From Alistipes timonensis (GTDB taxonomy: Bacteria > Bacteroidota > Bacteroidia > Bacteroidales > Muribaculaceae): a stretch of DNA of 64,000 nucleotides. The notes beneath the pieces were generated by a model, which was not told where the DNA came from, searched no databases, and was given only the letters and a program-made list of their open reading frames with translations. Each line of letters opens with the position of its first letter. Position 1 is the first letter of the stretch. The position numbers were made by a program, and so were the translations under genes. This document shows positions 37,470 through 64,000 of this stretch, in pieces. The stretch lies in assembly GCA_023663385.1 (NCBI GenBank), contig JAMPHO010000003.1, forward strand, positions 1-64,000, given 5' to 3'.

Positions 37470-37550
37470 CAAAACTCAGCCCAAACTACCCCAAAAATCA
37501 CCCCCACATTTTCCCGCTATGTTAAAAAATAATGTTAAAACAATTTGGCG

Positions 37551-39407: not shown

Positions 39408-39412
39408 GATGG

Positions 39413-41194
39413 TCAGTGATTAACGAATTTTACGACCTGGTCGTTGGAAGCGGCGATGTAAACGCCTGGCGCTAACGAAGAGAAATCAGCCGTAGCGGCG
39501 TCGGTGACACTTACGATCTGGCCGGCCATTGTATTTATGGATATTCTCTTGCCAAAGGGATTCATCAGTTTGCCACCGATAATTGTAAACTCGGGGTCAG
39601 TTTTTTCCGGGGTTAGCGCTGAAGTTGTGCCCCGCGGCATAGCCACGAGCATCTGAGGTCCCTTGCCTTGGTTGGTGGTCGATTCAGTGGATGTGAAGCG
39701 GCTTAACGCGCGCCATCGGTAAGGAGTCGACACACGGAATGTCACATATACGGCTCCCTCTTTTATTCTGGCTTTCACGAAGTCGGTCACGTCCCAGCCA
39801 ACATATGATTCGAGCATATTCTGAGTGAGCAGTGTGGTAGCAACTGGTTCGAACACATGGTTGTGGTGGTTGTCCCAGGTGAGGTTGGCTGTGTAAGTGG
39901 AGGTGTTGCCGCCGAGTTCGAGTGTCTCGATGCCGTCGAGCGGGCGGTTCTCGTTGTTGAGTTTGCCTGGCACCACGCTTTCATAATAGAGTCGCACTCC
40001 AATGCGGGCCGCATCGTCGGGCACCTCGTCGAGGGGGAAGGTGATGTAGATGCGGCGCGACCATCCGTCGCCGTTCTTAAGGTCGAGGGTCTGCGCGTCG
40101 GCATGCCCCTTGCTTTGTTCCGCCTGGTGCACGAAACTGTCATACGAGGCACTGATTACCTTATCGGCGATGTGAATTGTGGCTTTTGACTCGCCTCGGA
40201 GAGCTTGTGTTCCCCGTGCGTCGGTAACTCCTACCGCGTGGAATGTGACATCGGACTCCGCGTCGGCCACTTCCCAAAAATATGGGCATTCCGTAACTTC
40301 CGCGCCGTTGAGGGTGAATGGATAGTGTCCGGCCGTGAAGGTCACCATCATTCTCGCTGTCTCGCCCTTGGCCACCAGGGGCGAAGCAGGGGCAAGGGCA
40401 TAGTCAAAAGGGACTTCGAGGCCGAGATAGTCGCACGCCTCCTCCACGAAGATCTGCGCCATACGCCGCTGGATGTAGCTGTTGCTTCCGCGCAAGGGGT
40501 GCCAGCCGTATTTCACGCCACCTATAGTTTCCGTGTCGTGGGCGAAGCCGAGACTGGGCTGATCGGCCTGGGTTTCGGCATCGAGGCGTGAGAAGCCGAT
40601 GTTCTCGTCGAATTTCACCAATGGCAGGTTCCATTTCTCGGCAAGTTTGCGGATTGCCGGATTGTAGGTGGTGCGCGCGTCGTGCCAGTGGGTGCAAAGC
40701 ATTATTTTGGCCGGTTTCCCGTGCTCAGTGCCGTAATATTTCGATTCGGGATTATCCTTTAGCCCCTCGCAGTCGGCTATGTACCGCTTTATCACATAGT
40801 CGTAAGCCACGGAGTAGTCGGTTGTGGAGGCGATGTTGGTGTAGTCTTCCCATTTATCCTTGAGCCATTGCTCGTTGGCGACGTTTTGGTTGTGGACGTG
40901 GCCAATCACGAACACATCGGTTTTGTCGAGCTCTTCAAGGGTGTAGAATGTGCCGAGGTTCATACGGCGGGCGGTGTGGTAAATGGCTTCGCCGCTGACG
41001 GCCTTGTTGATAGCTTCGGCCCCGAGATCCTCACATCCGATTTCAAACCATCCGTTTTCGGGCACGGAGAACGACGCTCCCGTCAGCAGAAACGTTATTT
41101 TTTCATCGCCGGTCTGTTCGGCTGCTATGGTGGCCAGTGGCGCGGTTAAGGCGGCCACTCCCAGAATGTATTTCGCAAATGTATTCATATTCAT
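39413..41194 (-). CDS. Secreted DUF5040-like (SGNH-like) protein with DNRLRE-type and sorting domains
   Basis: 593 residues, signal peptide near 1-25. Residues about 32-255 resemble the DUF5040/SGNH-like fold: FLLTGASFSVPENGW, INKAVSGEAIYH, VFVIGHVHNQNV and HPLRGSNSYIQ. The catalytic Ser-Gly-Asn-His set is not cleanly intact: block I reads GAS where GDS is usual. Residues about 355-525 look like a DNRLRE/CBM96-type beta domain (YVGWDVTDFVKARIKEGAVY). The C-terminus (ISINTMAGQIVSV then SLAPGVYIAASNDQVVKFV) is a sorting-domain-like tail. It may be an esterase or carbohydrate binder of the PUL. Confidence 0.72.
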   Translation of the reverse strand: MNMNTFAKYILGVAALTAPLATIAAEQTGDEKITFLLTGASFSVPENGWFEIGCEDLGAEAINKAVSGEAIYHTARRMNLGTFYTLEELDKTDVFVIGHVHNQNVANEQWLKDKWEDYTNIASTTDYSVAYDYVIKRYIADCEGLKDNPESKYYGTEHGKPAKIMLCTHWHDARTTYNPAIRKLAEKWNLPLVKFDENIGFSRLDAETQADQPSLGFAHDTETIGGVKYGWHPLRGSNSYIQRRMAQIFVEEACDYLGLEVPFDYALAPASPLVAKGETARMMVTFTAGHYPFTLNGAEVTECPYFWEVADAESDVTFHAVGVTDARGTQALRGESKATIHIADKVISASYDSFVHQAEQSKGHADAQTLDLKNGDGWSRRIYITFPLDEVPDDAARIGVRLYYESVVPGKLNNENRPLDGIETLELGGNTSTYTANLTWDNHHNHVFEPVATTLLTQNMLESYVGWDVTDFVKARIKEGAVYVTFRVSTPYRWRALSRFTSTESTTNQGKGPQMLVAMPRGTTSALTPEKTDPEFTIIGGKLMNPFGKRISINTMAGQIVSVTDAATADFSSLAPGVYIAASNDQVVKFVNH

Positions 41195-41206
41195 GGATTT
41201 TTTGAG

Positions 41207-43429: not shown

Positions 43430-43447
43430 GGGAATGAAAAGTGGCTA

Positions 43448-44851
43448 TTATAGGAAATACTGGCCTCTGGATTTAAGAATCCGTCGAAGGTCAGTGGTGT
43501 CAACCGAGTGTACGTCTGGGGTGGCTGAGGCGGCGGCCAACGCGGCGGCGACACCGGCTGCCTCGCCTGTCACGAGGCAGGGAGGCATTACCCGTAGCGA
43601 GCCGTAGGCCTCGTCGTCAGCAGAGACGCACCGCCCGGCGGTTAATACGTTTCTCAGCCCTTTTGGGGTAAGGCAACGATAAGGTATTCCGTGGCTTTCG
43701 CCGCGTCCGTAGTGAACGTGGGGTACCCCGCTTTTGTGGATGTCGATGAAGTAGCAGTTGCGCCCGATTTCGTCGTCGAAACTCTTGCGGGCTCGCCAGT
43801 CGTCGCCGGTGAAAAGGTAGTCGCCCACGATTCTGCGGCTGTCGCGTATGCCGGGTATGATAGCGGTTTTAACGATGAACGCGTCCTTGAACGCGTCAGG
43901 GCGGTACTCGCGCAGCATTTCGAGATGCTGCTCGGCCGTGCGGCGTCCGAGACGCATCGCCGCCGAAAGCTGAGCCGGATCGGTGGTGTCCTTTATTTCG
44001 ATGTGGTTGGCGTTGAACTGCACCACGCCCGGACCTACAAGGTTGTGGCAGCAATGGGTGTCGAGCAGGGGGAAACGGCCTGTGCGGTACGCCCTGGCCG
44101 AAGGGCTGTCTGGGTTGTGACCCGAGTGAAGCTCGGGGCCGCCGAGGTATGCCGCGGTGTCGACGTTGGCCACTGAGAAGCAGAGGGTGCTCTTTTGGAG
44201 CACTCCGTCGGAGTCCCCCTTCAGATACTCGGCTCCTGCCCATGCGGCGATGTCGCCGTCGCCGGTGGCGTCGATAAATAATTTGGCCCGGTAGGCGGTA
44301 AGTCCGTCTTTGTTGGCCACTATGATGGCATCGACGGTATCGTCGGCGCTCTTTTCGACAGCCGCTACCCGGGAGAAGAATAGAACGTCGGCCCCCGACT
44401 CCTCGACCAAGCGGTCGTAAACGCTGATGAGATATTCGGGATTGATAGTGACCCAGTCGAACTTGTCGGCCGGTTCGTGAGGCACGCCGACTTTAGCCTG
44501 CCGGAACACCTTCTCCGCGATACCGCGGTAAATGATTTTCTCTCCGTCGGTAAAGGGGCACCACGCGGGCACCATGCCTGATGTGCCGAGGCCGCCGAGA
44601 TTTCCCGCGGCTTCGATGAGCAGGGTGGAACGCCCTTCCGACGCGGCGGCGATGGCGGCGGCGCACCCGGCCGGGCCACCTCCGGCCACGATTACTTCGT
44701 AGCTGTCGTTGACCTTCACTGGGCGGTTACCGCTGCCGGATACCTTTTCACGCGGGTTCCCGCCCCGCGCCGCCAGACCTTGCGGAATGGCGGCGGCGGT
44801 GGCAAGGAGTGCCGCGGTCTTCAAAAAGCCTCTACGGCTGAATGTTGACAT
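43448..44851 (-). CDS. Tat-exported FAD-dependent oxidoreductase
   Basis: 467 residues. The N-terminus has a twin-arginine signal (FSRRGFLKTAALLATAAAIP), suggesting export as a folded, flavin-loaded enzyme. FAD_oxidored family: YEVIVAGGGPAGCAAAIAAA, GNLGGLGTSGMVPAW, LFIDATGDGDIAAWAGAEYL and NVLTAGRCVSADDEAYGSLR. It is shorter than the 37551 protein and lacks the binding domain. Between susD and GH3 in the operon. Activity on the PUL sugar is plausible but unproven. Confidence 0.87.
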   Translation of the reverse strand: MSTFSRRGFLKTAALLATAAAIPQGLAARGGNPREKVSGSGNRPVKVNDSYEVIVAGGGPAGCAAAIAAASEGRSTLLIEAAGNLGGLGTSGMVPAWCPFTDGEKIIYRGIAEKVFRQAKVGVPHEPADKFDWVTINPEYLISVYDRLVEESGADVLFFSRVAAVEKSADDTVDAIIVANKDGLTAYRAKLFIDATGDGDIAAWAGAEYLKGDSDGVLQKSTLCFSVANVDTAAYLGGPELHSGHNPDSPSARAYRTGRFPLLDTHCCHNLVGPGVVQFNANHIEIKDTTDPAQLSAAMRLGRRTAEQHLEMLREYRPDAFKDAFIVKTAIIPGIRDSRRIVGDYLFTGDDWRARKSFDDEIGRNCYFIDIHKSGVPHVHYGRGESHGIPYRCLTPKGLRNVLTAGRCVSADDEAYGSLRVMPPCLVTGEAAGVAAALAAASATPDVHSVDTTDLRRILKSRGQYFL

Positions 44852-44897: not shown

Positions 44898-46571
44898 TTA
44901 TTCGAGGTAGCAGTCGCTACCCTCCCATCCGGGGTTCTGTGTGAGAACCCCCTCTGAGAGCTGTATCTCGGTGAGCGGTATGGGTAGGAAGCCTCTGGTT
45001 TCGGGGCGGTAGGTCACGCTCTTCTTGCGAGGCACCTTGCGGTCGTAAATTTGGATGTTGGTCTGGTTTTCGGTGATGAGCCGCTCGTCGTGCCAGCGCA
45101 GAAGGTCGTAGTAGCGCTCCCCCTCGAATGCCAGTTCGAATCGTCGCTCAGCCTTGATGTTGTCGAGAGTGGCGGGTAAGCTCGGCAGATTTACGCGGCC
45201 GCGCACCCGGTCGAAATAGGCTTGCGCTTCGGGGCATTCAAGCTCGGCACCCATCAGTAGCACGTCGGCGAAGCGTATCAGTATGATGTCCTGGGTATTG
45301 TTGAGCTGGAAGTTGGTTTCCGTCATACTGTAAAGGGGCACGCTGTAGTTCACCACGCTCTGTTTCGCGTCGTCGGCGTAAACGTTGATGGGGCAGTGCT
45401 TCTTGTTGATGTAGTAGGTTTCCTCCGAAGCGTTGCCGCCTCCCTTGAGGTAGAGACGCATCTCGGAGCGGTCGTTGCAGTCGATCACCGAGCCTTTTTT
45501 GCGGGGGTCGGCGTCATCCCAGTCCTCCCAAAGTTTGGGATTGACCGTGCCGAAGCCCCAACCTTGTCCGAAGGGGAAGGTGTAGACGTAGTTGCTCTGG
45601 CCGCGCACGCCGTAGTAGAGGCACACCTGGTTGCATTTCTGCGAAATCACGTCCCAAGTGCCGATTGTGGAATATTTGATGGCCATAACCTCCTCGATAT
45701 TGCCGTCGCCGGCCCAGGAAAGGCCGTTTTCGGAGGTGTATTTGTAATCCTGCACATGGCTGTATGGCCAGAGGTTGCGGAAATCGGAGAGCAGGTCGTG
45801 TCCGCTGTTGTCTATGCAGTCGGCGATGTACGCCTGGACCATCGCCTTGGTAACCTCGCCACCGTCGGCAGTAGGGAGCGAGTTGGCGCGGTAATAGCCG
45901 GTGTAGAACAGCCATACGCGGGCAAGGAGGGCTTGCGCGGCCCAGCGGGTCATGCGGCCGTTGTCCTCGCGGGGCATATCGGTTACTTTTGTCGCGGGCA
46001 TTTTCTCGATGGCGGCGACGAGGTCGGAGGCGATGAACGCGTAGGTTTCAGCCGCTGGATTCTTGGGGATGTTCACGGCATCGGGGGTAGTCACCAAAGG
46101 TACCTCGCCGAACATTCTCGAAAGGTCGAAGTAGAAGAACGCGCGCATCATGCGGGTTTCACCCTCGACCGCGTCGCGGTGTTCCATTGAGTCCCATTCG
46201 ATTTCGTCGATTTTGCTAAGGAGGAAATTGGCGCGGTATATGCCCATATATCTGGCTCGCCAGCTCCAGCGGAACATATCCTCGCTCGATTTCTTGAACT
46301 GGTCCATAGCCTTGCACGATTTGTCGGCGTTGTCTCCACCGCCGAAGCAATTGTCGCTCATCAGTTCGGAAATGAAGTAGGAGAATCCGAGCGGTTCGCA
46401 ACGGCCTACCATCGAGTAGACGCCTACAAGGAGCTGGTCCATGTCGTCGGGCGACTTGGGGTAGTTTGATGTGTCCTTCTTGGTGAGGTTCTCGGTGTCG
46501 AGGAAATCCTCGCATCCGCTGACCGCTACCATGCAGAAGATTACAGCGAGTATTGAAAAGAGTTTTTTCAT
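44898..46571 (-). CDS. SusD/RagB-family glycan-binding lipoprotein
   Basis: 557 residues with a lipoprotein signal (VAVSGCED, Cys20). SusD proteins bind glycan at the outer-membrane surface and form a lid over the SusC transporter. Family traits: FLDTENLTKKDTSNYPKSPD start, helical TPR units (RMMRAFFYFDLSRMFGEVPL; WAAQALLARVWLFYTGYY) and the C-terminal ERRFELAFEGERYYDLLRWH with FLPIPLTEIQLS. Directly follows susC (37 bp). Confidence 0.95.
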   Translation of the reverse strand: MKKLFSILAVIFCMVAVSGCEDFLDTENLTKKDTSNYPKSPDDMDQLLVGVYSMVGRCEPLGFSYFISELMSDNCFGGGDNADKSCKAMDQFKKSSEDMFRWSWRARYMGIYRANFLLSKIDEIEWDSMEHRDAVEGETRMMRAFFYFDLSRMFGEVPLVTTPDAVNIPKNPAAETYAFIASDLVAAIEKMPATKVTDMPREDNGRMTRWAAQALLARVWLFYTGYYRANSLPTADGGEVTKAMVQAYIADCIDNSGHDLLSDFRNLWPYSHVQDYKYTSENGLSWAGDGNIEEVMAIKYSTIGTWDVISQKCNQVCLYYGVRGQSNYVYTFPFGQGWGFGTVNPKLWEDWDDADPRKKGSVIDCNDRSEMRLYLKGGGNASEETYYINKKHCPINVYADDAKQSVVNYSVPLYSMTETNFQLNNTQDIILIRFADVLLMGAELECPEAQAYFDRVRGRVNLPSLPATLDNIKAERRFELAFEGERYYDLLRWHDERLITENQTNIQIYDRKVPRKKSVTYRPETRGFLPIPLTEIQLSEGVLTQNPGWEGSDCYLE

Positions 46572-46608: not shown

Positions 46609-49600
46609 TTAGTACTCTATGTTAAGGCCGACCATATAGCTTCGCGAGCCGGGATAGTATCCGAGGTCAATGCCGCTGGCCCAGCTGTCGCCGCCGCCAT
46701 ATCCTATTTCAGGATCCATTCCGGAGTACTTGGTGAATGTGAATGGGTTCTGCACGGCTCCGTAGACGCGGAGCTTGCTCAGCGGGAGGCGGGGGAACAG
46801 GCGCTTGAAGTCGTATCCGAGAGTTATGTTTGTGATTCGGAAGTAGTCACCATCCTCTATGTACAGGTCGCTGACGTATTGCCAGTTGATGGCGGATCCT
46901 CCAACGGCGGGGAGTCGGTTCGACGTGCCCTCGCCGTGCCAGCGTCCGAGCATCTCGGTGGTGTAATTGTCGTAAGGTTTGTCGGTTCCCGAGCGGTAGG
47001 AGCGGGCTATCTGGTTGCCTGCGATTCCGTAGCCGGTGAGCGAGAGGTCGAGTCCCTTCCAGCCGAGCATTATGTTGAGGCCGAAAGTGAGGTCGGGGTA
47101 GGGGTTGCCTATCGAAGTGCGGTCCTCGGGAGTGATGGTGCCGTCGCCGTCGCGGTCAACGAAAATCACGTCGCCGGGTTTGGCTGTCGGCATGATTGGC
47201 TGGCCGGTCGCGGGCGAGATGTAGTTGTCGATTTGCTCCTGGTTCTGGAAAATGCCGGCGGTCTTGTAGCCGTAGAAGTAGCCGAGGGGGTGTCCCTCTT
47301 CAGCTCTGTAGAAGGCGGTGGTGTTCTGCGCGAGCACCGCGGCTGTGCCTTCTATCAGGCCGTTGCCGTTGGCGATGCGTATCACTTCGTTGCGGTTGTG
47401 GGCCAGGTTGGCCGATATGCTGTAGGTGAAGTCGCCTACCCGGTCGTTCCACGAAACGGCCACTTCCACGCCGGTGTTTTTGATGTCGCCGCCGTTGACC
47501 CATGGAGCGCCGGTGCCCCAGATGCCGAGAGCGGTTGGCTGCACGAGCCAGTCAAGAGTCTTTTTCTCGTACCAGTCGAAAGTGAAGCCGAGGCGGTTGT
47601 TGAGGAATCGTGCGTCGAGGCCGATGTCGGTCTGACGCGAGGTTTCCCATTTGAGGTCGGGGTTGCTCATGATGTCGGGGTACGCGCCGATGGTGGGATG
47701 GGCCTTGTCGTCGCCGAAGTAGTACCAGGCGGCGTTGCTGGCGTTGCCGAAAGCGATTGTTGAGAGATAGCGGAATGTGGGGATGTTGCAGTTGCCGTTC
47801 TCACCCCAGGAGGCGCGGATTTTCAGCATATCGAGCCAATGGGACTGTCCCTCCATAAATTTTTCGGCGGCGATGTTCCATCCGGCTGAAACTGAGGGGA
47901 AGTAGCCCCAGCGGTGGCCGCGGGCGAAGTTCGATGAGCCGTCGGCGCGCATCGTTACCGAGGCCATATAGCGGCGGTCATAGTCGTAGTTCACTCGGCC
48001 GAACCAGCTGACAAGCTGGCCGCGGCTCCAGGGTGAGCCCGAGAGGGTGGTTGACCCGGAAGCGATGGACTTCACATTGCTCAGCCAGGCGTAGTCGAAG
48101 CTGTCGAACTCGCTGTCGCGGTTTGACCCGTTGATGTCCTGGCCGAGGCCCCACTTCTCAACCGAGTTGCCAACGAGCACGTTGAGGTGATGGCCTTTAA
48201 TGGTGAAGTCATAGCTCAGGGTGTTGTCCCACGACCACTGCAGCCCGTTGCCCGAGCCCTGGCTGACGCGGTCGGTTTTGGAGTAAGTCTTTTCGTTGAT
48301 TTGGTATACAGGAACGTATTCACGCGAGTTCCAGCCGTTGTACGCGAAGCCGAACGCGCTTTTGAACGTAAGCCCTTTGATTGGTTCGAGCACGAGGTAG
48401 AGGTTGCCACGGGCGTTATAGTTCTTGCTTTGGGAGAACGAGCGCAGGTAGTACATCTCGGCGAGCGGGTTTGTCTCATCGGTGTCGAGCAGTACGGGCC
48501 ACGCGTATTTCTCACCCGGAATTTCCCAGACAGGGAACAGAGGGGAGGCGCAGAGGGCGTTGCGAACGTCGTTCCAATACATATTGCCGGTGCCCTGGGT
48601 CATACCTTTTGAATTAATATGAGCCATGGTGAGGGTCTGGCCGAATTTCAGCAGGTCGCGGTCGGGGCGCTTGACGACTATGTGCTCCGAGTTGAAACGC
48701 AAGGTGTAACGCTCGTAGCGCTGTTTTACGTCGTCGGCTTTCACACCGATAGTCGGTGTCTCCGACGAGTAGCTGATTCCGAGCGAGTAGGTCGACCGTT
48801 CGCCGCCTCCGTCGAGTCCGAAGTTGTAGCCCTGCTTGAATCCGTCCTTCTTCTGTATTTCGTCGAGCCAGTTAGTGCCGTTGAACTCTCCGCTTTGGAT
48901 TTTGTCCCACATAGGCACATTGGCCGCGAGGTCAGCGTCGGTGAGTCCCCCCTCTTTCATAAGCATTATATACTGCTTGGCGTTGAGCGGAGTTACTGTC
49001 TTGGGTATTTCCTGCCATCCGAGATACATATTGAAGTGGGCGTTGACGCGCTCCTTGCCACCCTTTTTCGTGGTGACGAGGATGACGCCGTTGGCGGCGC
49101 GCGCGCCGTAGATCGCTGCGGAAGCCGCGTCCTTGAGTACGTCAATGCTCTCGATGTCGTTCGGGTCGAGCAGGTTGAGGTCGCCGCCGCTCACGCCGTC
49201 GATTACCACCAGGGGCGAGGAATTGTGTATGGTTCCCAAACCGCGGATGTTCACCTTGAATCCGTCGCCGGCCTTGCCGGTGTTTTTCACAATGTTAACG
49301 CCCGGAGCCTGGCTTTGGAGCGCGCCGTAGGCGCTCATAGTGTTCTGTTTCGCGATTTCGTCACCTTTAACCTGTAGGGTCGCTCCGGTGACGAGTTTCT
49401 TCTGTTGCACACCGTAGCCTATGGCGATTACTTCGTCGAGCACGTTGTCGTCGGCTTCGAGAGTGAAGTCAATCACATTCCGTCCGGCGACTTTGACCGT
49501 CGAAGTCTTGAAGCCGATGAAGCTTGCCGAGAGCCGCGACTTGTCGGAAAGGGTAAGGGAGAAACGTCCGTCAGCGTCAGTGGTTGTGCCGTTGCCGGGA

Positions 49601-49785
49601 TTGCCGGTTTCGGCCACCGTGGCACCGGGCAGCGGTTCCCCGTCGCCGCTCACTGTGCCGCGGACGGTGATGTCGGCTGCCGTTGCCGAAAGGGAGATGG
49701 CCGGCGCTACGAGCGCGGCCGCGAGCAGCCTGCGCGCCCATCCGCGGAGCGAGCTCATCGGGGCTGGTCTGGATTCTGGATTCAT
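46609..49785 (-). CDS. SusC/RagA-family TonB-dependent outer-membrane transporter
   Basis: 1058 residues. A signal peptide, an N-terminal carboxypeptidase-regulatory-like domain (ITVRGTVSGDGEPLPGATVA), the SusC signature around the TonB box (LDEVIAIGYGVQQKKLVTGA), a plug domain with IDVLKDAASAAIYGARAANG, and a C-terminal beta-barrel ending RSYMVGLNIEY. With SusD it imports the PUL oligosaccharide across the outer membrane, energised by the TonB system at 6902-10169 or another copy. First gene of the minus arm, 296 bp from the regulator gene. Confidence 0.96.
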   Translation of the reverse strand: MNPESRPAPMSSLRGWARRLLAAALVAPAISLSATAADITVRGTVSGDGEPLPGATVAETGNPGNGTTTDADGRFSLTLSDKSRLSASFIGFKTSTVKVAGRNVIDFTLEADDNVLDEVIAIGYGVQQKKLVTGATLQVKGDEIAKQNTMSAYGALQSQAPGVNIVKNTGKAGDGFKVNIRGLGTIHNSSPLVVIDGVSGGDLNLLDPNDIESIDVLKDAASAAIYGARAANGVILVTTKKGGKERVNAHFNMYLGWQEIPKTVTPLNAKQYIMLMKEGGLTDADLAANVPMWDKIQSGEFNGTNWLDEIQKKDGFKQGYNFGLDGGGERSTYSLGISYSSETPTIGVKADDVKQRYERYTLRFNSEHIVVKRPDRDLLKFGQTLTMAHINSKGMTQGTGNMYWNDVRNALCASPLFPVWEIPGEKYAWPVLLDTDETNPLAEMYYLRSFSQSKNYNARGNLYLVLEPIKGLTFKSAFGFAYNGWNSREYVPVYQINEKTYSKTDRVSQGSGNGLQWSWDNTLSYDFTIKGHHLNVLVGNSVEKWGLGQDINGSNRDSEFDSFDYAWLSNVKSIASGSTTLSGSPWSRGQLVSWFGRVNYDYDRRYMASVTMRADGSSNFARGHRWGYFPSVSAGWNIAAEKFMEGQSHWLDMLKIRASWGENGNCNIPTFRYLSTIAFGNASNAAWYYFGDDKAHPTIGAYPDIMSNPDLKWETSRQTDIGLDARFLNNRLGFTFDWYEKKTLDWLVQPTALGIWGTGAPWVNGGDIKNTGVEVAVSWNDRVGDFTYSISANLAHNRNEVIRIANGNGLIEGTAAVLAQNTTAFYRAEEGHPLGYFYGYKTAGIFQNQEQIDNYISPATGQPIMPTAKPGDVIFVDRDGDGTITPEDRTSIGNPYPDLTFGLNIMLGWKGLDLSLTGYGIAGNQIARSYRSGTDKPYDNYTTEMLGRWHGEGTSNRLPAVGGSAINWQYVSDLYIEDGDYFRITNITLGYDFKRLFPRLPLSKLRVYGAVQNPFTFTKYSGMDPEIGYGGGDSWASGIDLGYYPGSRSYMVGLNIEY

Positions 49786-49858: not shown

Positions 49859-49866
49859 CAAAGTTA
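49859..49866 (-). promoter_or_regulatory. -7 box of susC
   Basis: Minus-strand TAACTTTG, 74 bp before the susC ATG. The -33 region is not consensus, as expected for an activator-dependent promoter. Confidence 0.65.
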
Positions 49867-49929
49867 GTAATAATAGGTGTGGCGGCGCTGCCTGATATGC
49901 GCGCTAATCTTAGCTGATTGTCGGACTTG

Positions 49930-49961
49930 TTGCGAAAATGGGGTGATTAATTGCGAAAATG
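49930..49961 (-). promoter_or_regulatory. Proposed PUL regulator site upstream of susC (two direct repeats)
   Basis: In the transcription direction, CATTTTCGCAA occurs at 49961-49951 and again at 49940-49930, 10 bp apart (21-bp period). The downstream repeat ends 63 bp before the -7 box. The same paired motif stands upstream of the GH16 gene. AraC-type output domains commonly bind such spaced direct repeats. Confidence 0.75.
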
Positions 49962-50015
49962 TAGCCTCATTGATTTTTCTATATGTCGCAGAACCTATGT
50001 TTCGTGGATGTATAT

Positions 50016-50023
50016 TAACTTTG
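50016..50023 (+). promoter_or_regulatory. -7 box of the hybrid sensor gene
   Basis: TAACTTTG with predicted start near 50030. This makes a GTG at 50028 unusable and supports the ATG at 50082. Confidence 0.6.
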
Positions 50024-50081
50024 AATCGTGAAAAATGACCTTAAATCACCATTGAAACAATATACATCATTGAATAAGGAA

Positions 50082-53000
50082 ATGAGTAGCGCGATACGCT
50101 CTTTCATCAAGCCGTTGTCGAAAACGGCGCGGTCGCTGGCGCGCTGTGCGGCGGCTTTGCTTCTGCTTGCCGCGACCGATAGCGAGGCGGCGCCTGTTAG
50201 CGAGGCGGCTCCCGTAGGCCGTCTGTTCACGGTATCCAACACCCATATCAACAAAATCTGCCAGGACCATCTCGGCTACATTTGGCTCGCCACCGACTAC
50301 GGGCTGACGCGGTTCGACGGCTCCGAGGCAACCACCTTTACCAGCACGGCCGAGGCCGGATCGCTCCTCAGCAACACCGTGCTCACCGTCATGGAGGACA
50401 GTGAGAAGAATCTGTGGGTCGGTACCACCGACGGCATTCAGAAGTTTGACCGCGGCACACAGACATTCGTCACCCCGCGGCAGACGTATCCCGACGTTCC
50501 CGATTTCAGCTATGTGAACTCGATAATCGAGGATCGTAAGGGTAACATATGGTTCACCACCTCGCGTTCCGGCGCGGTGTGTATGAAAAAGGGTGAGCGC
50601 GACCCCGTTTGCTACATGACAACCAATTCGCGGATATGCTCCAACAAGACCACCGTGCTCTACGAGGATAGTTTCGGAAATATCTGGATCGGGTCGATGG
50701 ATGCCGGCATATCCATTTTCAACGGCTCGACCAACACGATGACTACCCTCAGCCATGTGCCGGGCGACCCCACCTCGCTGTCGAGCAATATGATTTTCAC
50801 CATCGGGCAGACCAACGACGGGCGACTGTTCATCGGCTCGCTCGACGGCGGCATCGATGCGTATGACTACCGTTCGAACCGGGTGACCCGCGACGTGGTG
50901 AAGGTCGGAGGCAATGTTTACATACTCCGCAACTCGCCGGAGGAAAACGCCATGTATATAGGTACCGACGGAAACGGACTGAAGAAGTACGACGTGGCCA
51001 CGGGAGCATTGTCGGATGTGAGCATCGCGGTGAAGGAGTTCAATCCTTCGAGAGCCAAAATCCATGACATACTGACCGACCGTCAGGGGAACCTCTGGCT
51101 CGGAGTTTTCCAAAAAGGGGCTCTTATGGTGTCGCGTGATGCCGACGATTCGTTGGTGAGCTACTCCTATTCGCCATTCTCTCCGTCGCTCAACATCGGT
51201 ACGGAGCCGGTGCTGTGCGCGTTGCGGAGTTCCGATGGCTCGCTTTGGATCGGAACGGATGGCGACGGCGTTTACCGCGCCGATTCCCCAGGCGCGCCGA
51301 TGCGGCATCTGGCCGATGCCGCGGCTGGAGCGTCGACCGTGCTGACTATGTTTCAGGATAGCCGTGGCACCGTCTGGGCGGGAAACTACCTCAACGGGTT
51401 GTCGCGCTACGATTCGGCAACCAGCGCTTTCGTCCCGGTGACGATACCCCTGCCCGACACTCCCGGTGGGCGTGTCAAGGAGGTTAACGCTATCGCTGAG
51501 GATGCGGATGGCAACCTTTGGATCGGCACCAACGGCGACGGGGTGTGTATATACAATCCTCGCTCTGGCTCGGCCAAATTCTTGTCGCACAGCCCCTCGA
51601 AGCCTGACTCCGGGCAACTGTTGGGCAACGCTGTGCACTCCATCCTCTTCACGGGCGACGGGAAAGTGTGGATAGGCACGAGCGACTCCGGCCTATCTTG
51701 CCTTGACACCCGCACCTGGCGCTTCGAGCATTACAACTCTACGAATATGCGTCTGAGCAACAATTGCGTATTCTCTCTTTGCCAGGATTCGTCGGGCGCG
51801 GTTTGGGCAGGCACGCGTATGGGCTTGAACCGCATACAAGGTGGCAGGACCCAGGTGATTAACGAGACCCACGGGCTTCTGAACAATCTCATATATTCCA
51901 TACTGGTTGACCGTGACAGCAATCTTTGGCTGAGCACCGGAGCGGGTATATGCCGGCTTGACCCTAAAACAATGCGCTTCGACGATTTCATGCCGATGGA
52001 GCATCTCGTCTGCAGCGAGTTCAAGCGCAATTCCGCCTGTCTCGGCCTTGACGGGAGGGTTTATTTCGGAGGTGTTGGGGGCCTGGTGTCATTCATGCCT
52101 GGCCGCGGACGCTCGCCGCGGGAACTGCTCAGGGTGGCATTCAATGAACTGACCCTTATTGACGAAGGCGACGCCGCGTCAGTGGGCATACCATCCGACG
52201 GTGTCATGACTCTTTCAAACCGCGACGCCGTGGATCTCACATATGACCAAAACAGTTTCACCGTTTCATTCGGGGCTGTCGAGTTCTCGCACCCCGAGAA
52301 CGTGGTGTATTCAGTTATGCTCGAAGGGCACGACAACGGATGGATCCAACTCCCCGCCGGAGCGCGCACGGCCACATATTCGAGTCTTCCCCCCGGCGAT
52401 TACACCCTAAGAGTCAGGGCGTCGATTGACGATTTCAAGCCTAAAGAGGCTTCCATGGCGCTCTCGATAGCGCCCCCGCTGTACCTCACCGCCTGGGCCA
52501 AGGCTCTGTATGCGTGTCTGTTCGCGCTGCTGGTGCTGTTCGGCGTGAAAGCCGTGAAATGGAGAATACGCGAGGAGCAGCGCCGCAACCGCCAGCTGAT
52601 GCAGGCACAGACTGCCGAGCATAAGCTCCAGTTTTTCACCGACATATCCCACGAAATACGCACGCCGCTCACGATGGTGCTTTCGCCGCTTGACTCCCTG
52701 CGCGAGAAAATCCGCGACAAGCAGACACTGCGCACAATAGAGGTGATGCGTTACAACGGCGACCGCATATTGAGGCTGATTGACCAGATAATGGATCTCA
52801 GGCGTTTGGACAACAATCAGATGAGCCTCTCGGTGAGCCGCACCGACATACGCCGGTTCCTCTCAGGCGTGGCCGGCGCTTTTGAGAATCTCGCGGAGCA
52901 GAAAAACATCGTTTTCCGGGTTGAAATCGCGGAAGAAGTGCCGGAAACCGCCATGCTTGACGGCGACAAGGTCGACAAGGTTGTGTTCAACGTGCTTTCC

Positions 53001-54218
53001 AACGCCTTCAAGTTCACTCCGGCGGGTGGCGTGATAACGCTTGACTGCCGCCCCGAAGGTGATTCGCTCGCCATCAGGGTGTCAGATACGGGGCCCGGCA
53101 TACCCGAATCGAGCCGCGACCGGGTGTTCAACCGATTCTACAGGGTTAAGGGTGAGGCTCATGACGCGGCTCCGGGCACGGGCATCGGACTTCACCTCGC
53201 ACGGGAGATGATGGAACTTCATCATGGCGAGATTATGGTCGAGAGCAGCTCCGGCGATGGCACCGTGATGCTGATTCTTATACCGATAGGGGAGGATGCT
53301 TACTCCGCCGAGGAGTCCGCCCCGGCGGTGAGGAAGGATCCCGCGCCTCACGCGGAGGTGAAAGTGCCACAGGCTTCTGGTCGCGGAGACGTGGCCGACG
53401 AGGTTCAGCGGCACCATGCCACGGTGCTTGTGATCGAGGACGACGCTTCTATTCTCGACTATGTCGCGGGAGAGCTCTCCGAGCACTATGATGTGCTTAC
53501 CGCCGCGAACGGCGCTGCCGGGCTTGAACTAGCCTTGACACGCCGACCCGACCTCATCCTGTCAGATATAATGATGGAGGGAATCGACGGGTTGGAGCTT
53601 TGCCGCAAAATCAGGGCAAACGCCGATACCTGCGAGATTCCGATAGTGCTCCTTACCGCCAAGGTTACCCAAGCGCAGCGCAACGAGGGGATTCTGGCCG
53701 GAGCCGACGCCTATATTACCAAGCCGTTCAACATAGGCCATCTGCTCAACAGGGTGAATATGCTCATAATGCAGCGCAGAATGCTCAAGGAGAAGTATTC
53801 GGGCGAGACGGTTGTCAACGAGGAGGTGACAAAAATCAAGTCGAACGACGAGCGCCTCTTTGAGCGCGTGCGCAAGGTCGTTCTCGACAATCTCGCGAGT
53901 CCCGACCTTTCGGTCGAGTTTATCGCGAAGGAGATAGGCGTGAGCCGCTCCCATCTGCAACGCCGCCTGAAAGTGTCGGCCAATATGAATCCGAGCGAGT
54001 ACATCAAGCGCGAACGTATGCGCCACGCGGCCTTGATGCTCTCAACCAAGAGTGTCGCGGTATCGGAAGTCGCCTACGCTACGGGATTTTCCACTTTGTC
54101 GCACTTCTCGACCTGCTTCAAGGAACATTATGGTATGTCGCCGACACGCTATGTGTCGCTGAACCAAGCCTCTGCGACGGCCGACGCGGTCGCGTCTGAC
54201 GGGGTGTCGGAAACGTGA
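50082..54218 (+). CDS. Hybrid two-component system sensor/regulator of the PUL
   Basis: 1378 residues from ATG 50082; an in-frame GTG at 50028 is rejected because it coincides with the predicted transcription start. A signal/anchor region precedes a periplasmic two-bladed beta-propeller sensor (about 30-690, repeats such as YIWLATDYGLTRFDG and LWVGTTDGIQKFDR), then a Y_Y_Y domain and a membrane helix (about 800-823). Cytoplasmic kinase: His857 in DISHEIRTPL, N box VFNVLSNAFKF, G box SDTGPGIPE. Receiver with Asp1162 (LILSDIMMEG) and ITKPF; C-terminal AraC DNA-binding domain (YATGFSTLSHFSTCFKEHYG). It senses PUL oligosaccharide and activates both arms. Confidence 0.96.
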   Translation: MSSAIRSFIKPLSKTARSLARCAAALLLLAATDSEAAPVSEAAPVGRLFTVSNTHINKICQDHLGYIWLATDYGLTRFDGSEATTFTSTAEAGSLLSNTVLTVMEDSEKNLWVGTTDGIQKFDRGTQTFVTPRQTYPDVPDFSYVNSIIEDRKGNIWFTTSRSGAVCMKKGERDPVCYMTTNSRICSNKTTVLYEDSFGNIWIGSMDAGISIFNGSTNTMTTLSHVPGDPTSLSSNMIFTIGQTNDGRLFIGSLDGGIDAYDYRSNRVTRDVVKVGGNVYILRNSPEENAMYIGTDGNGLKKYDVATGALSDVSIAVKEFNPSRAKIHDILTDRQGNLWLGVFQKGALMVSRDADDSLVSYSYSPFSPSLNIGTEPVLCALRSSDGSLWIGTDGDGVYRADSPGAPMRHLADAAAGASTVLTMFQDSRGTVWAGNYLNGLSRYDSATSAFVPVTIPLPDTPGGRVKEVNAIAEDADGNLWIGTNGDGVCIYNPRSGSAKFLSHSPSKPDSGQLLGNAVHSILFTGDGKVWIGTSDSGLSCLDTRTWRFEHYNSTNMRLSNNCVFSLCQDSSGAVWAGTRMGLNRIQGGRTQVINETHGLLNNLIYSILVDRDSNLWLSTGAGICRLDPKTMRFDDFMPMEHLVCSEFKRNSACLGLDGRVYFGGVGGLVSFMPGRGRSPRELLRVAFNELTLIDEGDAASVGIPSDGVMTLSNRDAVDLTYDQNSFTVSFGAVEFSHPENVVYSVMLEGHDNGWIQLPAGARTATYSSLPPGDYTLRVRASIDDFKPKEASMALSIAPPLYLTAWAKALYACLFALLVLFGVKAVKWRIREEQRRNRQLMQAQTAEHKLQFFTDISHEIRTPLTMVLSPLDSLREKIRDKQTLRTIEVMRYNGDRILRLIDQIMDLRRLDNNQMSLSVSRTDIRRFLSGVAGAFENLAEQKNIVFRVEIAEEVPETAMLDGDKVDKVVFNVLSNAFKFTPAGGVITLDCRPEGDSLAIRVSDTGPGIPESSRDRVFNRFYRVKGEAHDAAPGTGIGLHLAREMMELHHGEIMVESSSGDGTVMLILIPIGEDAYSAEESAPAVRKDPAPHAEVKVPQASGRGDVADEVQRHHATVLVIEDDASILDYVAGELSEHYDVLTAANGAAGLELALTRRPDLILSDIMMEGIDGLELCRKIRANADTCEIPIVLLTAKVTQAQRNEGILAGADAYITKPFNIGHLLNRVNMLIMQRRMLKEKYSGETVVNEEVTKIKSNDERLFERVRKVVLDNLASPDLSVEFIAKEIGVSRSHLQRRLKVSANMNPSEYIKRERMRHAALMLSTKSVAVSEVAYATGFSTLSHFSTCFKEHYGMSPTRYVSLNQASATADAVASDGVSET

Positions 54219-54247
54219 TTTCCGGGTATGCGCGGTCATTTGATGCA

Positions 54248-54280
54248 CATTTTCGCAAATACCTGCGACATTTTCGGCAA
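54248..54280 (+). promoter_or_regulatory. Proposed PUL regulator site upstream of the GH16 arm
   Basis: CATTTTCGCAA at 54248-54258 and CATTTTCGGCAA at 54269-54280, separated by 10 bp and in the direction of transcription. This is the same motif, spacing and orientation as upstream of susC. The -7 box begins 61 bp further on. Confidence 0.75.
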
Positions 54281-54341
54281 CGTCAGCGCAACTTGGAGAG
54301 TATCGAAGCCATTTTCACAAAGCCTTGGGCGACATAATGTA

Positions 54342-54349
54342 TAATTTTG
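54342..54349 (+). promoter_or_regulatory. -7 box of the GH16 arm
   Basis: TAATTTTG, 91 bp before the ATG at 54440, without a consensus -33. Confidence 0.6.
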
Positions 54350-54439: not shown

Positions 54440-55279
54440 ATGAAAAAAACTACCAAATTAATGACATCTATAATCGCTGTGGCGATTGTCGGGGTTACGG
54501 CCGCGAGCGCTCTCGCGGAGGGTAATCCGGCCGAAGGCGCGGTCGCGGTGCCCGACGGCTACTCGCGTCTCGTGTTCTCCGACGAGTTTGACACCGATGG
54601 TGCCCCCGACGCCTCTAAGTGGAATTTCGAGACAGGATACATCCGAAACGGGGAGATGCAGTATTATACGCCCGGCCAGAACGCGGTGTGCAAGGATGGC
54701 GTACTCGTTATCGAGGCACGCAACGACAGTGCCGTTATAAATGGCGAAGTCTGCCCCGTTACCTCCGCGAGCCTCACTACGAAAGGACTTAACGCGTGGA
54801 AGTATGGCTACGTCGAGGTGCGGGCGAAACTCCCTGCCTCGCTCGGCACCTGGCCCGCGATATGGATGATGCCTGAGGAGAACAATTACGGCAAGTGGCC
54901 CCGCTCGGGCGAGATTGATATAATGGAGCATGTGGGTTACAATCCCGAAAACATCCATTTCTCGGCCCACACTGAGCGCTTCAACCATATGCGCGGCACT
55001 CAGCGAACCCATGTGACCCACGCGCCCGAGGCGGTAGGCGATTTCCACCTTTACGCTTTGAAGTGGACGCCCGACAGGCTGACGTGGTACTACGACGGCA
55101 AGGAGCAGTATGCGATTGACCGCGAGGCCGACAGCGACTGGACCACCTGGCCATTTGACATTGATTATTATCTTATACTGAATCTCGCTTTCGGCGGTGG
55201 TTGGGGCGGCTCCGAGGGGGTCGACCTCTCGACTCTCCCGCAGCGCTACGAGATTGATTACGTCAGAGTTTTCCAATAG
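54440..55279 (+). CDS. GH16 family endo-beta-glucanase (laminarinase type)
   Basis: 279 residues, signal peptide (about 1-26). Residues about 40-279 are a complete GH16 jelly roll: RLVFSDEFDTDGAPD, YGYVEVRAKLPASLGTWPAI and the catalytic EIDIME (Glu158, Asp160, Glu163) in RSGEIDIMEHVGYNPE, ending YEIDYVRVFQ. The methionine between the Asp and second Glu is the beta-bulge form shared by laminarinases. Expected to cut beta-1,3 or mixed-linkage glucan. First gene of the plus arm. Confidence 0.93.
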   Translation: MKKTTKLMTSIIAVAIVGVTAASALAEGNPAEGAVAVPDGYSRLVFSDEFDTDGAPDASKWNFETGYIRNGEMQYYTPGQNAVCKDGVLVIEARNDSAVINGEVCPVTSASLTTKGLNAWKYGYVEVRAKLPASLGTWPAIWMMPEENNYGKWPRSGEIDIMEHVGYNPENIHFSAHTERFNHMRGTQRTHVTHAPEAVGDFHLYALKWTPDRLTWYYDGKEQYAIDREADSDWTTWPFDIDYYLILNLAFGGGWGGSEGVDLSTLPQRYEIDYVRVFQ

Positions 55280-56292: not shown

Positions 56293-57516
56293 ATGAAATC
56301 GTTAGTAACATCAATAATATCGCTCGCGGCATTGTTCGCGGCGAGCGCCGAGCCGGTGCTCTACGAGGCTTCGCTGACCGACCGCTACGGCACACCCTCG
56401 GCAAACGAGGAGGTGACCTTGCGCCTGACCCTGCTCGACGCGGAGGGGCGCCAGCTCTACGCCGAGACCCATTCGGTGACATCCGACGCTCTCGGTCAGC
56501 TCCGAGCCATGGTCGGCTCTGGTTCCGCGACCGAAGGTGAGTTTAACGACGCGAACTGGGAGTCAGCCGCGAATCTCGGGGTTGTGATTACCCGGGCCGA
56601 TGGTTCGGAGATAGCCGACGTTGCCAATCTCGGTTACACTCCGGCGGCGATTTACGCGAAAAGCGCTTCGGCGCTCGTCGGCCCCGCTACCGCCGAAGGG
56701 CGTTATCGCCTGGCTGTCGACGATGCGGGCAATCTTTCCACCGTATTTGAGAAGGATACGTCCATCGCCATCCCCGTGGGCTACACCCGCCTGATATTCC
56801 ATGACGAGTTCGACGGTGAGGGACTTCCCGACCCGACAATTTGGAGTTTCGAGCACGGCAATGTACGCAATGGTGAATACCAATATTATACCAAAAACCG
56901 TCTTGAGAACTGCTGCCAGGCCGACGGAGTGCTCCGCTTTACAACCATCAAGGAGGATTACACCGACCCGGAGACAGGTCAAACCGCCCAATACACCTCG
57001 GCGAGCGTTACCACTCAGAATACCGTGAAGTTCACTTACGGACGCGTCGATGTCCGCGCCAAGCTCCCGGCAATCAAAGGCACATGGCCCGCCATATGGC
57101 TGATGCCCAATGATAGCTATTACGGTATGTGGCCCCGTTCGGGTGAGATTGACATCATGGAGAATGTAGGCTACGACCCCAATGTGGTACACTTCACTGC
57201 CCACACCTATCTCCAGCACGGAGGTGACAACAACAAGCACCATATGTCAATGAGGGTTATGAATCCCACCCCCTCGGACGACTTCCATGTGTACTCGCTT
57301 GAATGGTCGGAAAACAAGCTTACCTGGCTCGTCGACGGCAAGCGCGGTTTCACTATGGTGAAAAACTCGGCCCTCTGGACCGGGTGGCCGTTCGACCGCG
57401 ACTTCTACCTCATTCTGAATCTCGCCTGGGGCGGTAGCTGGGGAGGCCAGCAGGGTATCGAGTCGGAGAAACTCCCGGTTACCTACGAGGTTGACTACGT
57501 CAGAATATTCCAGTAA
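56293..57516 (+). CDS. GH16 endo-beta-glucanase fused to a tail-fibre-type N-terminal domain
   Basis: 407 residues. Signal peptide to about 19; residues about 21-130 are the same adhesin-type domain as in the 55359 product (EASLTDRYGTPSANEEVTLR; AETHSVTSDALGQLRAMVGS; closing YTPAAIYAKSASALV). Residues about 160-407 form a GH16 domain with catalytic Glu285, Asp287 and Glu290 in SGEIDIMENVGYDP and C-terminus YEVDYVRIFQ. It is about 40-50 percent alike by eye to the 54440 enzyme. Likely surface-exposed or complex-bound beta-glucanase. Confidence 0.88.
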   Translation: MKSLVTSIISLAALFAASAEPVLYEASLTDRYGTPSANEEVTLRLTLLDAEGRQLYAETHSVTSDALGQLRAMVGSGSATEGEFNDANWESAANLGVVITRADGSEIADVANLGYTPAAIYAKSASALVGPATAEGRYRLAVDDAGNLSTVFEKDTSIAIPVGYTRLIFHDEFDGEGLPDPTIWSFEHGNVRNGEYQYYTKNRLENCCQADGVLRFTTIKEDYTDPETGQTAQYTSASVTTQNTVKFTYGRVDVRAKLPAIKGTWPAIWLMPNDSYYGMWPRSGEIDIMENVGYDPNVVHFTAHTYLQHGGDNNKHHMSMRVMNPTPSDDFHVYSLEWSENKLTWLVDGKRGFTMVKNSALWTGWPFDRDFYLILNLAWGGSWGGQQGIESEKLPVTYEVDYVRIFQ

Positions 57517-60876: not shown

Positions 60877-63800
60877 ATGTATAAGATTGTAAGAAAGTTT
60901 GTATTCGCTTTTGCGGCGGCGCTCGTACCTTTCGGGGGCGGCGCTGCCGCAATCGCTTCCGATGCCTCTATGGAGGCTCGGATCGACTCCCTGTTGTCGA
61001 AAATGACCCTCCAGGAGAAAGTCGGGCAGCTCAACCAGCTTAACACGGCCAGCTTCGACACTCTTTCAACGGCGGTGGCAGAAGGTAGGGTGGGGTCGAT
61101 ACTCAACGAGGTCAACCCGGAGGTAGTCAACGCGCTGCAGCGCAAGGCCGTTGAGGAGTCGCGGTTGGGGATACCCCTGGTATTCGCCCGCGATGTAATT
61201 CACGGGTTTAATACCATTTTCCCCATACCGCTGGGGCAGGCCGCGACCTGGAACCCCGAGCTTGTGGAGCTCGGAGCGAGAATCGCCGCTGTCGAAGCTT
61301 CGGCGTGCGGCGTGCGCTGGACTTTTTCACCGATGATGGATGTATCGCGCGACGCCCGTTGGGGACGCATCGCTGAATCAGCGGGTGAGGATCCCCTGCT
61401 CAACGAGCGTATGGGGCTCGCGATGATCCGAGGTTATCAGACCGACGATCTCACTGACCCGACCGCTATGGCCGCGTGCGCCAAGCATTTCGCCGGATAC
61501 GGCTTTTCGGAGTCTGGGAAGGACTATAATACCACCTGGCTACCGTTGCCGCTGCTCAACGATGTGGTGCTTCCGCCGTTCGAGGCCGCGGCCAAGGCAG
61601 GCGCGGCGACATTTATGACTTCGTTCAATGATATAAACGGCGTACCATCATCGGGCAACCGATGGCTTATGCGCGACGTGCTCCGCGACCGTTGGGGCTT
61701 CGACGGGGTGCTCGTGAGTGACTGGAATGCCATAACCGAGATGATTTCCCACGGGGTAGCGCCCGACAAGCGTGCCGCCGCCGCGCTCGCCGCCGCCGCG
61801 GGTGTGGATGTCGATATGGAGGGACACGCTTATTCCCAGGCGCTTGAGGCGCTCGTGAAAGCCGGAAGGATTGACGAGAAGGTCGTCGACGGCCTCGTGC
61901 GCGATGTGCTTCGTCTCAAGATGCGCCTCGGCCTGTTTGAGAATCCGTATGTCGATACTTCGAAACCTTCGCCCGCCTACCTCCCCTCCCATCTCGACGC
62001 GGCGCGCCGAACGGCCGAGGAGGGCGCGGTGCTTTTGAAAAACAACGGATTGCTCCCGTTTGGAAAATCTGTTAAGAAGCTTGCCGTGGTAGGACCGATG
62101 GCCGACGCGGCCTATGACCAGTGCGGTACATGGGCTCCTGACATCGACAAGAGCCGTTCGGTGACCCCTTTGACCGCTCTCCGCGACGCTTTCGGCACCA
62201 AAAATATCCTGTACGCCCCGGGACTTAAGTATACGCGCGACCGCTCTCTCGACGGAATCGCCGCGGCGGTCGAAGCCGCGCGCGGGGCTGATGCTGTAGT
62301 GTGCTTCGTCGGAGAAGAGGCGGTTATGTCGGGCGAGGCCCACTGCATGGCCGACCTTGACCTGAAAGGAGCGCAGTCCGCTCTTATTGAGGCATTGAAG
62401 GAAACTGGCAAACCACTCGCCGTTGTGTTTATGGCGGGGCGTCCTCTTACTGTTGAGAAAGAAATCGCCCTGGCCGACGCCGTGCTCTATTCCTTCCACG
62501 GGGGCACGATGGCCGGTCCGGCGCTGGCCAACCTGCTCACCGGTAAAGCAAACCCTTCGGGTAAACTTCCGGCGACAATGGCCCGTATGACAGGCCAATA
62601 TCCGATTTATTACGCCCATAAGCAGACCGGTCGTCCGCCTGAATGGACCATCGACCTTGACGCTATTCCGGTTGAGGCTCCGCAGACATCCACGGGGTGC
62701 ACCTCATATTTCCTCGATGCGGGTAAGGATCCGCTATACCCCTTCGGCTACGGACTGAGCTACACTACTTTTGAAATCAGCGAGCCCCGCCTGTCGGCCA
62801 ACGCGCTCTCTATGGCGAGCGAGAAGCCGCTTACAGTTACCTGCACCGTTAAGAACACCGGCAATCGGGAGGGAGCCGAGGTAGTGCAATTCTATGTGCG
62901 CGATATGTTCGCGAGCCTCGCCCGACCAGTTAAGGAGCTAAAAGATTTCAAGAAGGTTACCTTAAAGCCCGGCGAAAGCAAGGAGGTTAGCTTCTCGATC
63001 TACCCATCCCAGCTATCTTTCAGCGGCCTTGATGGCGAGAGGCTTCTCGAACCGGGCGAGTTCCGTGTGTGGACCGCCTCTAACTCAGCCTCGGGGAAAC
63101 CGGCGAGCTTCTCCCTTGTCGAAGAAAAAATAGTGGGGAGTGTGCCTGACGAGTGGCTCCGTTGCTGGGAGCCGGGTGAGAAGCCCGAAGTGGGAGTCAA
63201 TCTCCGCAACGACACAGGCGTTGACGGTTCCGCCTCGGTAAGCTCGAAGCTTATGAAAGACGACTGGAGTTTTGTTGACGAATGGACCAAGGAAATCAAA
63301 CTTGACGCGGGCAGCACTGCCGGCGTCAAGTTTGACGCTTTGACCCTCGCCCCGGGGTTCTACCGGGTTGAGGTCAGGGTAGGTGACCATCTGGTGCGCC
63401 GGTTCAATATCGGTTACGACCCAACTTCGATAGTTTCAGCCGCTGACCGCCAGCCTGATTTCGAGGCATTCTGGCATAATGCCCTTAAGGAGTTGGCCGC
63501 CACGGCGCCCGAGTACAAGCTCACGCTCGACAAGGAAAAGTCGGGGAGCGCCCGCGACGTCTACCTGGTGGAAATGAAGTCGGTCCCCGACAGTGTCGGT
63601 GCCGAGCCGGTGACCATCAGGGGGTATTATTCAGCCCCCAAAGATGGTGGAAAGCACCCGGCGCTCCTCTGTTTCGAGGGGTACGATGGTGGCCAGGGCC
63701 CATACTGGGGGCCAGGTGACATTAATCCTGACTGGGCGGAGTTCCACCTGTCGAGCCGCGGCCAGATGCTCAACAACCGAGGTGAAAACAAAAACACCTA

Positions 63801-64000
63801 CGGCGACTGGTTTGCCTGGAACTTCGGCGACAAGGACCATTATTATTATCGTGGCGCGTTTATGGACGTAGTGCGCGCGGTCGATTTCATTACCTCGCGC
63901 GAAACTACCGACACCACCCGGGTTTATGCCTGCGGGCAGAGCCAGGGCGGTGCTTTCACGGTCGCGTCTGCGGCTCTCGGTGGAGGCCGCGTCAAGGGCA
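60877..64000 (+). CDS. GH3 glucosidase fused to a CE7-type acetyl esterase (3' end outside window)
   Basis: Open from ATG 60877 to the window end, 1041 codons. Signal peptide, then GH3: ARDVIHGFNTIFPIPLGQAA, RDARWGRIAESAGEDPLLNE, KHFAGYGFSESGKDYN, nucleophile Asp282 in GVLVSDWNAI, second domain and a fibronectin III-like domain (about 645-730). After a linker domain (about 760-845) comes a CE7/AXE1-type unit: DFEAFWHNALKELA, LSSRGQMLNNRGEN, YYYRGAFMDVVRAVDFIT and the nucleophile elbow GQSQGG (Ser1022). The His/Asp end of the esterase lies beyond the window. It would combine beta-glucosidase and deacetylase activities. Confidence 0.9.
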   Translation, partial: MYKIVRKFVFAFAAALVPFGGGAAAIASDASMEARIDSLLSKMTLQEKVGQLNQLNTASFDTLSTAVAEGRVGSILNEVNPEVVNALQRKAVEESRLGIPLVFARDVIHGFNTIFPIPLGQAATWNPELVELGARIAAVEASACGVRWTFSPMMDVSRDARWGRIAESAGEDPLLNERMGLAMIRGYQTDDLTDPTAMAACAKHFAGYGFSESGKDYNTTWLPLPLLNDVVLPPFEAAAKAGAATFMTSFNDINGVPSSGNRWLMRDVLRDRWGFDGVLVSDWNAITEMISHGVAPDKRAAAALAAAAGVDVDMEGHAYSQALEALVKAGRIDEKVVDGLVRDVLRLKMRLGLFENPYVDTSKPSPAYLPSHLDAARRTAEEGAVLLKNNGLLPFGKSVKKLAVVGPMADAAYDQCGTWAPDIDKSRSVTPLTALRDAFGTKNILYAPGLKYTRDRSLDGIAAAVEAARGADAVVCFVGEEAVMSGEAHCMADLDLKGAQSALIEALKETGKPLAVVFMAGRPLTVEKEIALADAVLYSFHGGTMAGPALANLLTGKANPSGKLPATMARMTGQYPIYYAHKQTGRPPEWTIDLDAIPVEAPQTSTGCTSYFLDAGKDPLYPFGYGLSYTTFEISEPRLSANALSMASEKPLTVTCTVKNTGNREGAEVVQFYVRDMFASLARPVKELKDFKKVTLKPGESKEVSFSIYPSQLSFSGLDGERLLEPGEFRVWTASNSASGKPASFSLVEEKIVGSVPDEWLRCWEPGEKPEVGVNLRNDTGVDGSASVSSKLMKDDWSFVDEWTKEIKLDAGSTAGVKFDALTLAPGFYRVEVRVGDHLVRRFNIGYDPTSIVSAADRQPDFEAFWHNALKELAATAPEYKLTLDKEKSGSARDVYLVEMKSVPDSVGAEPVTIRGYYSAPKDGGKHPALLCFEGYDGGQGPYWGPGDINPDWAEFHLSSRGQMLNNRGENKNTYGDWFAWNFGDKDHYYYRGAFMDVVRAVDFITSRETTDTTRVYACGQSQGGAFTVASAALGGGRVKG

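Follow-up and report, generated by a model that had tools for sequence, protein, structure and literature searches.

PULs controlled by HTCSs are a main route of glycan choice in Bacteroidota. To our knowledge, few HTCS operators have been mapped so far, and a literature search for HTCS ChIP-seq data or mapped start sites of HTCS-controlled genes turned up no HTCS footprint paper. The closest described operators are those that Ravcheev et al. 2013 predicted in Bacteroides thetaiotaomicron. The part of their paper that we draw on describes 16 motifs, which are direct repeats with an average distance of 21 bp; the sites are of 12–16 bp with spacers of 5–9 bp, a dimer lies on one face of the helix, and the predicted sites are upstream of susC-type operons and of further PUL operons (PMC3878776). 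For two HTCSs, BT4124 and BT4663, binding to susCD promoters is controlled by phosphorylation, with EMSA on the bt4114 and bt4662 promoters, which have predicted binding sites (PMC11253607).

We analyzed a stretch of 64,000 nucleotides (the window) in which an HTCS gene (50082..54218, plus strand) lies between two divergent arms. The left arm opens with a SusC/RagA TonB-dependent transporter (46609..49785, minus strand) and a SusD-like glycan-binding lipoprotein (44898..46571, minus strand), followed by a FAD oxidoreductase, a GH3, a DUF5040/CBM96 protein, another FAD oxidoreductase, a xylose-isomerase-like protein, and an MFS transporter. The right arm, on the plus strand, opens with a GH16 enzyme (54440..55279), followed by two small proteins, a second GH16 enzyme (56293..57516), a beta-helix protein, an LRR protein, and a GH3 enzyme (60877..63999) that extends past the window edge and has an AXE1-like esterase domain at its end. 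A susC/susD pair, linked glycoside hydrolases, and a regulator are all present, as expected for a PUL. In having an HTCS, SusC, SusD, GH16, and GH3 together, the locus resembles a known PUL, but it differs from that PUL in that two GH16 genes are on the divergent arm along with beta-helix and LRR proteins, and in that FAD-oxidoreductase genes follow susD. Because the solved structures nearest to the first GH16 enzyme are laminarinases (3iln), beta-1,3-glucan would be a reasonable substrate. The two FAD_oxidored (PF12831) genes and the xylose-isomerase-like TIM-barrel gene of the susC arm (within 36581–44851) are not typical of a plain beta-glucan PUL and may form an oxidative sugar route.

The regulator has Reg_prop propeller, Y_Y_Y, HisKA, HATPase_c, Response_reg, and HTH_18 (AraC-type) domains, so that a periplasmic sensor, a histidine kinase, a receiver, and an AraC-type HTH are on one chain, as in other HTCSs. 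Among solved structures, it best matches two two-component sensor/regulators (4a2l and 3v9f) and, over the receiver and HTH, 12aw. The protein has the same architecture as BT4124 and BT4663, but in the receiver's alpha3-beta4 loop it has CEIP instead of the S/CHIP contact motif (PMC11253607). The receiver-HTH contact motif S/CHIP-DK is conserved in HTCSs, but about 9% of them lack the H, so CEIP is no bar to membership in the family (PMC11253607). In BT4124, inhibition is relieved when AD replaces the CH residues, and CEIP may therefore mean that inhibition in the resting state differs from that of BT4124 and BT4663 and is looser in the window HTCS (PMC11253607). Among relatives, the motif is CEIP, SDIP, or CDIP in the closest ones, with an acidic residue in the position of the H, and CHIP in the loci L171 and L174. 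The longest reading frame of the HTCS begins with a GTG at 50028. Because the gene's own -7 element (TAACTTTG, plus strand) lies at 50016..50023, the ATG at 50082 is the likely start. This element is apart from the paired repeats, and two relatives have TAGTTTTG or TAACTTTG. Between the susC-side pair and the HTCS promoter, at about 49970–49990, lies TTTTTCTATATGT, which is identical in L042.

Each arm has a pair of direct repeats upstream of its first gene. On the susC side (minus strand), CATTTTCGCAA at 49961–49951 is followed after N10 by a second CATTTTCGCAA at 49940–49930; on the GH16 side (plus strand), CATTTTCGCAA at 54248–54258 is followed after N10 by CATTTTCGGCAA at 54269–54280. A preliminary description of this DNA had reported these pairs, and its sequences, coordinates, strands, and spacing were all correct, as were its distances from the pair to the -7 element: 63 bp for susC (TAACTTTG, 49859..49866, minus strand) and 61 bp for GH16 (TAATTTTG, 54342..54349, plus strand). 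These -7 elements were assigned by consensus, and their TA and TTT are preserved in 21/21 aligned promoters. We also considered an insertion in the second copy on the GH16 side, which would make it a 12-mer, and rejected this reading: the ungapped 11-mer, CATTTTCGGCA, which is 21 bp from the first copy, is a better match to the 21-bp register and to the relatives. The start-to-start distance is exactly 21 bp on both arms, and the 21 aligned promoters all share it. What did not hold up is the length of 11 bp, as the half-site has a consensus of roughly GCKACATTTTCGCAA, or about 15 bp with a spacer of about 6 (ungapped alignment A3), which agrees with the 12–16-bp sites and 5–9-bp spacers in the portion of the published description that we draw on (PMC3878776). 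On the susC arm (minus strand), the first half-site is GCTACATTTTCGCAA (49951..49965, offset 0, 95 bp before the -7 element), which is kept in 10 susC promoters of orthologous loci, and the second is ACCCCATTTTCGCAA (49930..49944, offset 21). On the GH16 arm (plus strand), these are TGCACATTTTCGCAA (54244..54258, offset 0, 94 bp before the -7 element) and GCGACATTTTCGGCA (54265..54279, offset 21).

Both pairs are like the B. thetaiotaomicron operators, so far as those are described in the text that we cite, in being direct repeats with a 21-bp period that lie ahead of PUL operons and are conserved at orthologous promoters, and they differ in half-site sequence and organism (PMC3878776). The average of 21 bp for the HTCS direct repeats in that text also lends support to the proposal that a dimer with AraC-type domains would read two helical turns (PMC3878776).

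Identical 11-mers are common to both arms, which might mean that the similarity is due to chance, or that the intergenic region was recently duplicated, and that there is no operator. We compared the four half-sites at all positions and at spacings of 14–30 with 300 dinucleotide shuffles. At spacing 21, the four-way match was 60/66, versus 39.8 ± 1.7 in the shuffles (maximum 48); none of the 300 shuffles reached the observed match, which bears out the earlier judgment that chance is very unlikely. The susC and GH16 promoters are not alike outside of the half-sites, either around or between them, and so the intergenic region was not duplicated. Also, the half-sites have diverged between species while their spacing and placement were retained. 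We regard chance or duplication as having a negligible probability.

Within the 2.8-Mb genome, CATTTTCG-N10..16-CATTTTCG occurs exactly twice, once per arm, and the reversed control of this paired 8-mer core does not occur at all. Scanning the genome for the paired motif, as had been proposed, gave only the two arms and no crowd of unrelated matches. If up to 3 mismatches are allowed in 22 bases, then there is one additional match (C11:749909), which we rejected as a further operator as it lies inside a transporter-like coding sequence. Profiles of 44 and 108 positions identified no additional convincing site in this genome (G000); the next matches had 15.5 and 14.3 bits.

The gene order susC-HTCS-GH16a is also found in five other species (L042, which is the same as L077, and L043, L078, L079, and L080), with HTCSs that are 73 to 47% identical to that of the window. 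Across the six species, 12/12 promoters have a direct repeat of period 21 that starts 94 or 95 bp upstream of TAnnTTT(G). When the window's consensus and position were applied to the 10 promoters of the orthologs, offset 94 scored 15.8/22, the next offset scored 12.5, and the background was 6.7 ± 1.3. For the six promoters of L078–L080 alone, offset 94 scored 14.7 versus 12.3. If the ortholog promoters are taken one species at a time and without the known position, most are not clearly above shuffles.

Another regulator that is encoded elsewhere, such as another AraC-type protein or a global Crp-like factor, might read the pair: the half-site sequence varies between species, and the link between HTCS and site is a prediction. 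We searched 397 genomes of the family with a sequence-only profile of 108 positions. The 12 strong matches (41–71 bits), all at the six PULs, are the profile's own training set, so the telling parts are the gap in scores (the next match had 24.7 bits) and the absence of strong matches elsewhere. Across these hundreds of genomes, the motif is strict enough to pick out just its own PUL, and strong matches occur only at PULs with an ortholog of the HTCS. Five genomes of the same genus without an ortholog of the HTCS had no strong site. Furthermore, a 21-bp direct repeat is the HTCS pattern in the part of the published work that we draw on (PMC3878776), and it is also found near many other HTCS genes. 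Another regulator is thus improbable.

Only five loci (L171–L174 and L184) were held out from the profile. L171–L174 are from two other families of the order, and their HTCSs and susC are 42–44% and about 60% identical to those of the window. In each of these loci, the best PWM matches were in the promoters of susC, of the homolog of x211 and, for three of the loci, of GH16a. At the susC and x211 sites, the -7 element is again at 94/95 bp; in the GH16a promoters of L172–L174, the strong pair is at 53/54 and 32/33 bp, which is the slot of the weak pair described below. L184 has a further site, with a distance of 94 bp, in front of an unnamed gene that is itself followed by a GH3 gene. In these other families (L171, L172, L173, and L174), the x211 small-protein gene is served by a separate promoter that carries the same operator, so that the regulon of L172–L174 would comprise three operator-bearing promoters. 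HTCSs from site-carrying loci have similar first-HTH regions, of the type IG(V/L)SRSxLxRxLK, and HTCSs from loci without the site have different ones.

Because the arrangement recurs in relatives of at least three families, the repeats are almost certainly landing sites for an HTCS. Very probably, the HTCS whose gene lies between the two pairs uses them as its operator, and it would switch on both arms together as a single regulon. Direct computation showed the repeats and that they are unique, that their geometry is conserved, and that they co-occur with the HTCS ortholog. One regulon across both arms, as the preliminary description predicted, is supported by the gene order and by the paired repeat at both promoters in the six species and the held-out loci. 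Similarly, the conserved order susC-HTCS-GH16a and the operator at both promoters argue that the GH16 genes belong to the PUL, with a common operator for the susC operon and the divergent GH16 operon.

Promoters near other HTCS genes also have a peak of self-similarity at spacing 21, with other half-site sequences, and so the 21-bp rule is general, as published. The matched spacing is the general rule for HTCSs and no peculiarity of this locus. We rejected a universal distance of 94/95 bp for HTCS promoters, as the others mostly peak near 57–66 bp and also have peaks near 76–81 and 95; the 94/95 placement is a feature of the window's orthologous group. Direct-repeat HTCS operators with an average period of 21 bp had already been predicted in Bacteroides, and this locus adds an unusually well-supported example. 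The newer part would be a lattice of four half-sites with fixed promoter geometry and replacement of a promoter element.

We aligned 21 promoters from 13 clade groups, anchored on the first half-site. CA-N7-AA is present at offsets 0 and 21 and again, more weakly, at 41 and 62/63, with group-weighted z values of 12.6 (0), 12.9 (21), 5.3 (+41), and 3.9 and 3.5 (+62/63). The highest of 167 background offsets had z of about 4.4. The third half-site is above this value and so stands on its own; the fourth (3.9) is below it and so rests also on the register. In the window, the susC arm (minus strand) has candidate degenerate half-sites CCGACAATCAGCTAA (49910..49924, offset 41) and CGCGCATATCAGGCA (49889..49903, offset 62), the latter at the would-be -33 element and weak in the window sequence alone. 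On the GH16 arm (plus strand), the third half-site, AGCGCAACTTGGAGA (54285..54299, offset 41), is degenerate and weak in the window sequence alone, and the fourth, AAGCCATTTTCACAA (54306..54320, offset 62), is conserved in L042 and L043. The partial copy CATTTTCACAA at 54310–54320, which the preliminary description considered to be a third copy present only on the GH16 side, belongs to this fourth half-site. On the susC arm, CATATCAGGCA (from 49899) corresponds to it; this sequence is weak alone but has a CATATC that is invariant in three species. As degenerate half-sites lie at +41 and +62/63 on both arms, the third copy would be a fourth half-site and is not confined to one side. At positions -23/-22, 20 and 17 of the 21 promoters have A, while T is the commonest base in two larger HTCS-linked background sets (43 and 56% at -22), which suggests that the -33 element is replaced in operator-bearing promoters.

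Given these alignments, the operator would be better seen as two pairs, a strong distal one and a degenerate proximal one. More specifically, we propose that HTCS operators in this clade have four tandem half-sites (at 0, 21, 41, and 62) that are read by two HTCS dimers, that the last half-site replaces the -33 element, that the -7 element is fixed at 94/95 bp across at least three families, and that strength can move between the distal and proximal pairs in 41-bp steps. This full scheme has about an even chance of being correct. A variant, to which we give a real but somewhat smaller chance, is that only the strong 21-bp pair is functional and that the third and fourth half-sites are promoter context (an A-rich spacer and a -33 surrogate). 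Indeed, these two half-sites are degenerate and weak in most single promoters, where they score far lower than the strong pair, and the fourth is within the background range. However, they extend the 20/21-bp grid at +41 and +62/63; the A at -23/-22 is not what background promoters have; the x211 promoter of L171 has a third half-site at full strength; and three GH16a promoters have the strong pair in the proximal slot. MelR at the melAB promoter of E. coli, an AraC-family activator that is not an HTCS, has several tandem half-sites, of which the promoter-proximal one is weak; the window operator may be analogous in both respects. The B. thetaiotaomicron operators, as described in the part of that paper that we draw on, have two sites, without a fixed promoter distance or a second degenerate pair (PMC3878776). 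If the four-half-site scheme is true, then it is a promoter grammar that is not described for HTCSs in the literature cited here, and its fixed geometry (the pair, the second pair, and the -7 element) is a layout that can readily be tested.

In the mechanism that we favor, an oligosaccharide released from beta-glucan would bind the periplasmic propeller of the HTCS, and the receiver domain would then be phosphorylated. The AraC-type domains of an HTCS dimer would bind two direct half-sites of about 15 bp that are 21 bp, or two helical turns, apart; these form the strong pair, 94/95 and 73/74 bp ahead of the -7 element. The degenerate pair at 53/54 and 31–33 bp would be filled next, probably cooperatively by a second dimer, and this occupancy would place the regulator at the would-be -33 element. 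RNA polymerase would then be recruited to both the susC and the GH16 operons.

Two other features of these loci were apparent. The susC promoter has a palindrome, GCTAAGATTAGC (minus strand, about 49905–49920), between its pair and its -7 element, which overlaps the third half-site; L042 has GCGCGAAGATTCGCGC in the equivalent place (near 9730–9755), and the arms of the palindrome covary. Also, two reading frames make up the HTCS ortholog in L043 (9572–14000) and in L184 (7245–11332), and this split may be due to decay or to assembly error; the operator is kept in both.
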